A DNA stretch of 64,000 nucleotides from Candidatus Chlorohelix allophototropha (GTDB lineage Bacteria > Chloroflexota > Chloroflexia > Chloroheliales > Chloroheliaceae), in NCBI RefSeq assembly GCF_030389965.1, contig NZ_CP128400.1, positions 930,001-994,000 on the forward strand, given 5' to 3'. The translations under genes and the position numbers were made by a program. Shown one piece after another: positions 22,375 through 25,689 of the stretch. Positions within the stretch are counted from its first letter, which is position 1. Each line of letters opens with the position of its first letter. The notes under the pieces were generated by a model. The model was not told the origin of the DNA. It was given only the letters and a program-made list of their open reading frames with translations, and searched no databases.

Positions 22375-24078
22375 TTAAGCGCCGATCGCCATGTTGATTA
22401 CCTTGAAAACCAGCACAATTGCAGTCATTCCCAGATAGCCCCACATACAAAGCATTGCCAGATTCTTAGTAGTTGACCAGATTGGTTTAGGCAGACTATT
22501 CAAAGGACTCATCCGCCAGCTATTTTTATCTAGTTTTGGCTCTCTAACCATACCTTCATTCTTTTTCTGCCGACTGATGAAGGCGATTACTCCAGTGATC
22601 AGCAACCCAACGGTGAGAATTGTCGCCAGAATAAGCGAAAGGATGGTTACATCAATTTCCGGGAAAACTGTGGTTATTGCCATCACAAATGATAGCATCA
22701 TCAGTACCCCGATTATAACTGTGCCAATAACGTTTAACCAAGTCGGGTTAGTCCATGGACCTAACACATGTTTGTCGTTGCACAGCAGCAGTAGAAAGAC
22801 CGTTGCGCTGGGCAATAGCAATCCGGCTAAAGCTTGTACACCCATAGTAATCAGCCCAAGAGGGGCATTAGGGATTAGCACTATTGCTGCCGCTACTATT
22901 ACTAACCCTGCATAAAGCACATAGAATAGCCGCGCATCCTTGAAATTGCGATGCAGCGAATGTTTAATACCAAAGGTGTCGCCAAAGGCATAAGCGGTGG
23001 ACAGCGAAACGGCGGCGGCTCCAATTATAGAGGCGTTAAGCAAAAAGATTGAGAACATCGCGCCCATCCAGAAACCGGATACATCGGCAAAGCCCTTGGC
23101 TACTGCACCGGCATCACTGAACTGTCCGTGAAAAGAAGTTCCGTTAAAGGCAAAGGCAGCCGCAATAATCAGGGCGGCGGCTCCAAAAGCTGTAATGAAA
23201 GCGCCGATATAGGTATCCATTTGTTCGTACTTAATCCAGCGCGGGGTGATGCGTTTGTCAATTACATTGGATTGCTGGAAGAATAGTTGCCAAGGTGCAA
23301 CCGTAGTACCTACGATTCCGATAATCAACAGCAAAGCTTTTGAATCAAATTTACCCTCAAGACCCGGAATGAATGTATCATGCATAATCTGTCCGGCTGA
23401 AGGATGGCAGAAAATTATCAATAGCGGAACTAAAATCAGGTTAAGTGCGATAAAGAGATACATAAAACGTTCCCAGCGGCGGAAACTGCCGGTTATCACC
23501 ATAATAATCAGCAAAGCGGCTGAAACCGGAACCGAAATAGCTTGCTCAACTCCAAAAAAGCTCAACGCCATCGCAATACCGATAAATTCAGTTACAATGG
23601 TTAGGAAGTTTAGAAGGAACAGGTCTCCAATCGAGAAAGCCGCCCAGAATTTACCGAAGCGTTCCAGAATCAAGCGTGCATGCCCTACGCCTGTGACTGC
23701 ACCGAGACGAACAACCATTTCCTGATTAACAATCAAAACCGGGATGAGTAAAACAATTACCCATAAAAGACTGGTTCCATAGTTCTGCCCTGCTTGGGAA
23801 TAGGTCGCAACTCCACCAGCATCGTTGTCGCCCACCATCGCGATCAAGCCGGGTCCCATGATTGCCAACATGGTCAGGATTTTCTGTTTCAAGGAGCGGC
23901 GCGGGGTGGTATCGTTCACCCGGATGGTGCCCAACGCGCCTTTGATGTCGCCCAGATGTGCCTCATCCAGCACAGCGCTCCGAGCGACGGAGACATTTGG
24001 CTCAATCAACGAGACGTTTTCATTTATGGTCATAGCTTCACCTCTTCCTTCTGCTTGAAATTCAGATAGTAAATCCAT
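22375..24078 (-). CDS. NRMT/Nramp-family divalent metal ion transporter
   Basis: The 567-residue protein has about 11 membrane helices on the Nramp plan. Helix 1 reads GPGLIAMVGDNDAGGVATYSQAG, where classic Nramps have DPGN. Helix 6 reads TTVAPWQLFFQQS, where classic Nramps have a metal-binding MPHN. Loss of the Met and the DND motif place it with Nramp-related magnesium transporters (NRMT-like) rather than manganese/iron MntH, although Mn cannot be excluded. The start at 24078 has AGAGG nearby. ATG at 24033, after GAGGTG, is an alternative. A Mg role fits the divergent MgtE-N protein and the adjacent bchXYZ genes (inference). Confidence 0.88.
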   Translation of the reverse strand: MDLLSEFQAEGRGEAMTINENVSLIEPNVSVARSAVLDEAHLGDIKGALGTIRVNDTTPRRSLKQKILTMLAIMGPGLIAMVGDNDAGGVATYSQAGQNYGTSLLWVIVLLIPVLIVNQEMVVRLGAVTGVGHARLILERFGKFWAAFSIGDLFLLNFLTIVTEFIGIAMALSFFGVEQAISVPVSAALLIIMVITGSFRRWERFMYLFIALNLILVPLLIIFCHPSAGQIMHDTFIPGLEGKFDSKALLLIIGIVGTTVAPWQLFFQQSNVIDKRITPRWIKYEQMDTYIGAFITAFGAAALIIAAAFAFNGTSFHGQFSDAGAVAKGFADVSGFWMGAMFSIFLLNASIIGAAAVSLSTAYAFGDTFGIKHSLHRNFKDARLFYVLYAGLVIVAAAIVLIPNAPLGLITMGVQALAGLLLPSATVFLLLLCNDKHVLGPWTNPTWLNVIGTVIIGVLMMLSFVMAITTVFPEIDVTILSLILATILTVGLLITGVIAFISRQKKNEGMVREPKLDKNSWRMSPLNSLPKPIWSTTKNLAMLCMWGYLGMTAIVLVFKVINMAIGA

Positions 24079-24383
24079 TTTTCCTCTTACATTGCTACTT
24101 AATTAAGCGTATTGCTCGCCCTCTCGCTTGATAGAGACTACTCAGGAGAGCCGATAAGCAGCGCAAAACAACACGGTAATTTCCAATGCGTCATTGCACC
24201 AAGAACCGACTATCCCCAGAAACGATCTAGGGAGTTAGAGCTATTCTTTTTACCTGTAATACCCGTTGTGCTGCAATGTTAATTAACGAACCAAGAGGGT
24301 GCAGGCTGAAAAACTAAGTAGCATGTGGAAGAAAATGCGGGAAATAACGGAAGGTAAATGCGCTAATAGCGCAGAAGAGATAA

Positions 24384-24432
24384 AAGGAGGTGAAGCCAAT
24401 AATATTAAAGGTTACGCTACCTTTACCTCCTT
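24384..24432 (-). terminator. Candidate attenuator terminator in the transporter leader
   Basis: On the - strand, AAGGAGGT (24425-24432) pairs with ACCTCCTT (24384-24391), and an inner AAAGGT/ACCTTT stem forms from 24419-24424 and 24407-24412. Four T follow. The 5' arms lie inside the small leader frame at 24412-24480, so a translating or stalled ribosome would control the fold. The T tract is short. Confidence 0.45.
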
Positions 24433-24480
24433 ACCTTGGGTTTTCCCAAAGTCTTCCAAGTTACTACGGTCTGCATCCAT
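24412..24480 (-). CDS. Candidate 22-residue leader peptide of the metal transporter mRNA
   Basis: An ATG at 24480 follows AAAGGAG with ten bases between, and opens a 22-codon frame ending TAA at 24412. The peptide begins MDADRSNLEDF and is rich in acidic residues early on. Its last codons form the 5' side of a terminator-like hairpin. Acidic N-termini destabilise translating ribosomes at low Mg in E. coli and Salmonella (the MgtL principle). By analogy, this peptide could sense Mg for the transporter 334 bases downstream. The frame is visible; the function is inference. Confidence 0.4.
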   Translation of the reverse strand: MDADRSNLEDFGKTQGKEVKVA

Positions 24481-24885
24481 AAAAGGATGACTCCTTTCAC
24501 TAAGCCGATAGTTACAATTGTTCCTTATAGGAAAGCGGGAACAACTACTAAATATGCATGTAACGATCAGTAAATCAATAACCTTATCAAGTTATTTATA
24601 ACATTTTCGATGGTATTAGTCAACCCCTTGTGGTAAAATTCACAATTAAATATTGGTAACGAGTTTAAAATCAATGTGTTAAAAAACGATTATTACTCAA
24701 CTCTAACACTACTAATTAGCCTGTGCTATCTATGATTCTAACCCTTCATTCTGTAGGGTAGTAGCATCATAACCTGATCTAATATTAGAATATCATTAAT
24801 CTATTGACTTAATTCTATTCCCAAACATACAATGATTATAAGTACCTATACTTTTGCTGGCTTGTTCCGGTCAGCTACCTAGCAT

Positions 24886-25689
24886 ATGCCATTAGTATTG
24901 TTAAGCCATCTTCTTGATACTCCAGTCCTAGATAAGTCGGGGAAAGAAATAGCTTCTCTGAAAGACCTTTCGGTTTGTTTAAACCCGGCGGGAAAGAATA
25001 ACCAACTAAAGGAACCCCATCCTCACCTAACGGGGTTGGTAGCCGAGAAGGATGATGAGGAATGGTGGATTCCCCTTCGGCAAGTCCAATCATTTGGTGA
25101 AAAAGAAATAAAATTATCTGTCTCGGTCAAAGAGATTGTTAAGTTTGAGCGTTTCCCAGGCGAAGCTTTGCTAAATGAAGATATACTCGATAAACCTTTG
25201 GTAGATTTGCAAGGGCGAAGAGTTGTACATGCTAATGACCTAGTGCTTAGCATAGTTGGCAACCAACCAGTTATCTGGCTAATTGCAGTAGATGTGTCCC
25301 TGCAGGCTCGGCTACTACGCCTTATACCCTTTCTTTCGAAAAAAGGCGGGTTGTTGGCGTTGGATGATGAAATGCTGGATTGGTCTGATGTGGAATATCT
25401 GACCAGTAGCGCACCCGAAGCGCGCCTTGACATCGAGCACGAACACCTAGAAGGGTTGAGCGTGGCTTATCTGGTGCCTCTATTAGAGGAATTACCCCCA
25501 GAGCTTGGCGCCGAAATCGTGGAGGATTTAAGCCCGAAGGTTGCGGCATCAGTGCTGGAAAACATAAGACCCGATTGCGCTGTAGATATTCTGCAGCTAC
25601 TAAAAGAAGAAGACCGTTTGGAAATTTTCACTAATATGAGTCCGGCGGTAGCGAATCGTCTATCTGAAGTTCCTGACCGATTGTTGTAA
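24886..25689 (+). CDS. PRC-barrel-like and MgtE N-terminal domain protein, lacking CBS domains
   Basis: Two PRC-barrel-like units occupy about 1-160: LLDTPVLDKSGKEIASLKDLSV and LLNEDILDKPLVDLQGRRVV. The last about 80 residues are an MgtE intracellular N domain of short helical repeats: LVPLLEELPPELGAEIVEDL, KVAASVLENI and AVDILQLLKEEDRLEIF. In MgtE magnesium channels this domain senses Mg together with CBS domains. Stand-alone versions are often encoded near NRMT-type transporters. Here the chain stops after the N domain, without CBS or transmembrane parts. No clear Shine-Dalgarno precedes the ATG. A role as Mg sensor or partner of the divergent transporter is inferred. Confidence 0.75.
   Translation: MPLVLLSHLLDTPVLDKSGKEIASLKDLSVCLNPAGKNNQLKEPHPHLTGLVAEKDDEEWWIPLRQVQSFGEKEIKLSVSVKEIVKFERFPGEALLNEDILDKPLVDLQGRRVVHANDLVLSIVGNQPVIWLIAVDVSLQARLLRLIPFLSKKGGLLALDDEMLDWSDVEYLTSSAPEARLDIEHEHLEGLSVAYLVPLLEELPPELGAEIVEDLSPKVAASVLENIRPDCAVDILQLLKEEDRLEIFTNMSPAVANRLSEVPDRLL

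Follow-up and report, generated by a model that had tools for sequence, protein, structure and literature searches.

The minus strand of the window, by which we mean the whole 64,000-nucleotide stretch of Candidatus Chlorohelix allophototropha DNA analysed here, carries a short ORF with an acidic start ahead of a transporter gene, which raises the question of whether this ORF encodes a Mg-sensing leader peptide of the MgtL type. The preliminary description had proposed, with no strand given, a 22-codon frame starting MDADRSNLEDF behind AAAGGAG, and the frame is present exactly as claimed, with its ATG at 24480-24478, 22 sense codons and a TAA finishing at 24412 (Table 1). The Shine-Dalgarno sequence lies 10 nt from the ATG, and the translation places two acids, D2 and D4, within the first five codons. 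The gene after the leader was also correctly named as an Nramp-related Mg transporter (NRMT): the protein matches the Pfam Nramp domain, its best solved relative is 7qia, which we take to be EleNRMT, and the ion-site motif of NRMTs is present, as DAGG and TTVA at residues 86 and 258, respectively. In this motif, as described in PMC8806188, DxxG and TxxA/T replace DPGN and AxxM. Judged by inspection of the window and of the sequence of G002, a genome of the same family, the likelier start of NRMT is the ATG at 24033, which has its own Shine-Dalgarno sequence and stands where the G002 ortholog begins. The distance from leader to gene is 333 nt or more in the window, and about 300 nt or more when both genomes are considered.

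Table 1. Features of the leader and transporter locus (positions in the window)
Feature	Position	Strand	Basis or remark
NRMT gene	22375..24078	-	Pfam Nramp; 7qia, E 4.5e-62; DAGG/TTVA motif
C/U-rich, G-poor tract (C 35%, G 9%), candidate Rho-binding (rut) region	24318..24395	-	
Hairpin of ORF tail AAGGAGGTAAAGG with CTTCACCTCCTT	24384..24432	-	Folds; read as tract-hiding, not as terminator
22-codon leader ORF MDADRSNLEDFGKTQGKEVKVA	24412..24480	-	Sequence and ORF translation; start kept in G002
Leader codons 2-6, GAT GCA GAC CGT AGT (acidic D2 and D4, then near-invariant AGT serine)	24463..24477	-	
Shine-Dalgarno AAAGGAG of leader ORF	24491..24497	-	Sequence; counterpart in G002 is AGTGAAAGGAGT
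Candidate sigma-70-type promoter, TTGACT-17 nt-TATAAA	24595..24623	-	Upstream of leader ORF

The promoter candidate stands about 115 nt ahead of the leader ATG (TTGACN-N16-18-TATAA has 3 matches in the 64-kb window vs 0.46 expected), so it is plausible that transcription begins upstream and includes the leader ORF. The leader start codon falls within a possible small hairpin, both in the window (24475-24488, minus strand) and at locus L003, and the stem shows a compensating pair change, ATCC..GGAT in the window vs GTCC..GGAC in G002. Adjoining the leader is a divergent gene (24886-25689, plus strand) whose product has an MgtE intracellular (MgtE_N) domain. This protein probably belongs to the same Mg locus, because related MgtE_N/CBS genes adjoin Nramp/NRMT genes in other families. 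A BchZ-like gene, whose match score is below the model's cut-off, also lies near the NRMT locus, and an ABC-F search for EttA gave four relatives, all under the cut-off.

To see whether the leader is kept, we searched four other genomes of the same family, one of which, G002, has a close transporter ortholog (72%). The sole significant DNA match between the two upstream regions (46/59 identical, E 6e-8) spans the Shine-Dalgarno sequence and the start of the leader ORF, MDGDRSSLGDNPVTLPEVGGAMVEKKNN, and the G002 leader starts MDGDRSSLGD, compared with MDADRS in the window. Conservation of both the peptide and the hairpin over its end had been proposed as a check; the peptide start is conserved, whereas the hairpin is absent from the G002 leader. 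Since the gene beyond the leader differs, being the MgtE_N-domain gene in the window and another ORF in G002, the leader travels with the transporter. The pattern GGAG-N4..14-ATGGAYGSNGAYCGN has matches in 25 of 158 genomes of the class, the window's genome and G002 included; the others are probably mostly chance matches in G+C-rich genomes.

We then read the regions upstream of NRMT genes across the phylum. The transporter was sought in 400 genomes, 51 of which had a match at E 1e-90, and 50 NRMT upstream regions were read, namely those of the window and G002 and 48 of the 57 found elsewhere. ORFs were counted when they had a Shine-Dalgarno sequence, an ATG, 8-60 codons and a start M[DE]; those in which residue 3, 4 or 5 was also acidic were scored as two-acid leaders. 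The patterns M[DE] and M[DE]x0-2[DE] were picked after the data had been seen, with MDAD and MgtL as the motive. M[DE] ORFs precede NRMT in 25/50 cases and two-acid ORFs in 16/50, the latter falling in 13 genera by a count of genome labels, compared with 1/144 and 0/144 for control upstream regions (144 genes in 20 stretches of the same genome set). Fisher tests per locus gave 1e-16 and 5e-11, respectively, for loci that include non-independent ones from related genomes. Upstream of other Nramp genes of the same class, M[DE] ORFs were found in 1/28 cases and two-acid ORFs in 0/28. A leader common to all Nramp genes is ruled out, M[DE].D occurring in none of these 28 regions, and such an ORF is also missing ahead of both remaining Nramp genes in the window's own genome. 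The pattern GGAG-N4..13-ATG-GAN-NNN-GAN-NNN-AGT has a single match in the whole 6.1-Mb genome, the leader itself. A chance ORF is ruled out by this single match, by the match in G002, and by the enrichment ahead of NRMT relative to both controls and other Nramp genes. The ORF with its acidic start is conserved and is specifically linked to Mg importers.

Examples of leader starts are MDPDPSRHC, MDPDPGSHC, MEPDPGSPG, MDPDGSQPP, MDTDHSPKR, MDGDGSRQS, MDDDGSPHQ and MEGDDSPNP. Codon 2 is variously GAT, GAC, GAA or GAG; this interchange of D and E points to the residue. An acid occupies position 2 in 32/32 compiled leaders, a set that was selected for that residue and that does not contain L068, L069 and L093 of the 25 M[DE] loci. 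Length differences close to the leader start are whole codons. The M[DE] ORF is absent from the other 25/50 NRMT upstream regions, including most of those of family f31, in which NRMT comes straight after an MgtE_N-CBS gene. When 20 stretches of about 3 kb, mostly from f31, were read, no leader of the expected kind was found before the first gene of the NRMT operon; four M[DE] ORFs, in four of these stretches, lie far upstream and are probably there by chance. The actinobacterial orthologs (L052-L057) have no two-acid ATG leader upstream. Two of these loci, L053 and L055, share an acidimicrobial block, GCTGAGCGGGTAAGATC...GTGAAGCCGGTACCC, about 400-200 nt ahead of NRMT; it has no Rfam family match and might represent a leader RNA of a different sort. 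Families f18 and f55 have a shorter spacing: only about 30-155 nt separate the end of the leader ORF from the point at which the NRMT match is mapped to begin, and this interval contains a hairpin and the NRMT Shine-Dalgarno sequence. In f18 the leader ORF also stands between two genes of a Mg locus.

The acids are followed by a second constant element. Among leaders found without use of the AGT pattern (L229, L230, L239 and L243 being dropped), AGT stands at codon 5, 6 or 7, after the acids, in 40/42, and both exceptions have AGA; L069 and L068 have AGT at codon 4 or 5. The share of AGT among serine codons is 6% in f18, 7% in f55, 16% in f30 and 20% in f1. The acids swap D for E, and the AGT codon is nearly constant. 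This codon after the acids is a new feature of such leaders. Our guess is that it might be a slow codon that adds to ribosome drop-off; alternatively, its constancy may reflect a motif at the nucleotide level.

Similar leaders were found before other genes. M[DE]PDP behind AGGA occurs at 17 places in the 400 genomes, eight of them within long ORFs and nine in short ORFs of 24-30 codons, all in family f30. Six of the nine short ORFs precede NRMT or NRMT-like genes and one an MgtA-type ATPase (1363 bits to TIGR01524); of the remaining two, one stands before a Na/Pi symporter gene divergent from NRMT and one is without a clear target. In a search for MgtA, we read eight of the nine places that scored at least 990 bits, and acidic leaders precede 4/8 of these top MgtA-type Mg ATPases; ahead of lower-scoring ATPases, M[DE].D was found in 0/22 cases and an M[DE] ORF in 3/22 (L206, L209 and L222). 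At L197, in genome G342, two acidic leaders stand in tandem before one MgtA-type ATPase, MEGDRS at 589 nt and MDPDGS at 244 nt. The pattern MDxDxS(AGT) occurs at 21 places, of which 16 are ORFs of fewer than 60 codons, half of them (eight) ahead of Mg genes and half without a known Mg gene adjoining. In two genomes, MDADGS leaders precede MgtE_N-CBS genes that are followed by an Nramp gene. MDxDxS leaders also occur before genes without a known Mg role (L186, L239, L241, L243, L237 and L240), the targets there being a Na/Pi symporter, an ABC permease and others that lack a Pfam match or were unscanned.

The preliminary description had further claimed that the last codons of the ORF form the 5' arm of a hairpin followed by four T. 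The pairing is present, between AAGGAGGTAAAGG at 24432-24420 and CTTCACCTCCTT at 24395-24384; the TTTT, at 24385-24382, lies partly within the stem. The leader folds better than shuffled sequences, both over a 161-nt region (z -3.64; 1/200 shuffles as good) and over its whole 412 nt (z -3.74; 0/100). Known riboswitches, the M-box among them, are ruled out: there was no Rfam leader match at gathering score, and none up to E 10 at 24000-24900; a search of L003 and L052-L057 gave no match up to E 3. For the C/U-rich tract, C minus G is 0.26 vs a 90th percentile of 0.27 in 53 control upstream regions, and the bias of C over G after the ORF is modest when 11 leaders are compared with the 53 controls (p 0.02). 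Pairing of the ORF tail with the tract is better than in any shuffle in G002 (0/500 as good) and weak in the window (32/500). Folding the RNA with its stop codon occupied by a ribosome clearly opened the tract in 4/10 leaders, the window's not being one of them. Nine f30 leaders, one of which precedes MgtA, allow two pairings: that of the ORF tail with a second segment (1:2), and that of this second segment, in a hairpin, with a later one whose end is GTGTGAGG or a close variant (2:3). Across seven distinct f30 leaders the own 1:2 pairing was the best of 5040 permutations, and these results support the idea that in the f30 relatives the tail pairs with a segment able to form another helix. Pairing between the later segment and the C/U-rich tract is possible as well, with own pairs no better than crossed ones. 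After the leader ORF, f30 NRMT and MgtA leaders share a hairpin CCTCACGCCTCGC...GCGAGNNGTGTGAGG (L062, L067, L072, L073, L075, L089, L102, L103 and L196).

We consider it probable that the ORF is the leader peptide of the NRMT transcript and that it works like MgtL. This reading is well supported by anatomy and genomic context: an acidic leader stands before NRMT, is kept in relatives, occurs also before the unrelated MgtA and has MgtL-like acids. According to PMC11282234, MgtL governs a Rho-dependent terminator through its early acids. The terminator is kept open in high Mg; in low Mg the acids make ribosomes dissociate, at EPDP, and the terminator is then closed by the RNA. For the window we infer the following scheme, from translation and drop-off to the Mg signal, the role of Rho and the sign of the control. 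With ample Mg, ribosomes would translate the leader to its end, the purine-rich ORF tail would be covered, the C/U-rich tract would lie open and NRMT transcription would be stopped, most likely by Rho, for which a gene is encoded in the window's genome. With low Mg, the acidic start MDAD would destabilise the ribosomes translating it, and they would drop off over the first few codons; the freed tail would pair with the tract and hide it, and NRMT would be expressed. We rate at slightly below even odds a wider proposal, that there are Mg-sensing leader peptides across the phylum, of separate origin from the enterobacterial MgtL, governing NRMT, MgtA and the MgtE_N-CBS gene, in which the acids and a fixed AGU (rarely AGA) at codons 5-7 would be the drop-off site and two helices sharing one RNA strand would switch.

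The terminator function first assigned to the hairpin is the part of the MgtL-type proposal that was not supported. A stable hairpin does lie over the end of the ORF with a TTTT, but attenuation by an intrinsic terminator under the leader ribosome appears very improbable, as the hairpin is absent from the listing of a terminator scan, has a long inner part and a short T run, and is missing in the G002 leader. Its logic would also be reversed, because early drop-off in low Mg would free the tail, form the hairpin and halt transcription of the needed importer; as a cover of the C/U-rich tract, the same hairpin gives control of the correct sign. The leader could instead control translation of NRMT, alternative helices opening or closing its ribosome-binding site as mgtQ does for mgtB. 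In f18 and f55 the short distance from ORF end to NRMT match makes Rho less likely and suggests translational control like that by mgtQ, which, with Asp2 and Glu5, acts in this way in Salmonella (PMC8092293). The greater spacing in the window and G002 speaks against it, and we regard translational control by the leader as rather unlikely.

The signal might also be something other than Mg, such as EF-P status or the supply of proline or serine (charged tRNA), in line with proposals on the proline codons of MgtL and MgtP. The Pro codons (MDPDP) of many relatives and the conserved Ser AGT codon would agree with such a signal, but the leaders of the window (MDADRS) and G002 (MDGDRS) have no early Pro, and what is constant is the acid at position 2, albeit in a set chosen for it; we judge this explanation improbable. 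That the RNA is a structured, riboswitch-like element and the apparent ORF incidental would fit the good folding of the leader and the keeping of AGT at the codon level. With no Rfam match even at E 10, and with whole-codon length changes near the start and interchanging D and E codons, we give it very little credence.

That such a leader had gone unreported also held, in that we found no earlier report of an MgtL-like leader before NRMT or in Chloroflexi in open-access full texts. Among known systems, the M-box, a Mg-responsive riboswitch described upstream of the Clostridium acetobutylicum NRMT (PMC4072509), resembles the leader in being a 5' leader ahead of an NRMT gene and differs in being an RNA aptamer, whereas the window has an ORF and no M-box or other Rfam match. 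Like mgtQ, which lies between mgtC and mgtB in Salmonella and acts on mgtB translation inside the operon (PMC8092293), the leader is a tiny ORF with early acids that would promote a Mg transporter, and the f18 leaders share its position between two Mg-locus genes; unlike mgtQ, the leader in the window stands alone, well ahead of NRMT.

The closest comparison is with MgtL itself, the leader of mgtA in E. coli and Salmonella. The likeness in sequence, judged by eye, is limited to the start pattern, with no Rfam match: E. coli MgtL starts MEPDPT, while the window leader, MDADR, lacks Pro and EPDP, MDPDP and MEPDP being found in the f30 relatives. The target is also different, an NRMT and not the P-type ATPase MgtA, and the Chloroflexota leaders have their AGT codon where MgtL has ACG. 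Both are short ORFs led by a Shine-Dalgarno sequence before a Mg importer, with acids at codons 2 and 4 (MEPDP in MgtL, MDAD in the window), and both are followed by RNA with alternative conformations, as described for MgtL in PMC11282234. Two views of MgtL are touched by this comparison, since the acids are kept here and the prolines are not, and the AGU codon offers a sharp new test of what sets the drop-off point. MgtL is a well-studied example of a cell gauging Mg by the stability of its own ribosomes, described for enterobacteria; if our reading is true, the recurrence of this peptide logic in a distant phylum, ahead of unrelated importers, would make this gauge a general one that evolved or persisted widely. 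We file the leader with MgtL by its probable way of working and not by descent.
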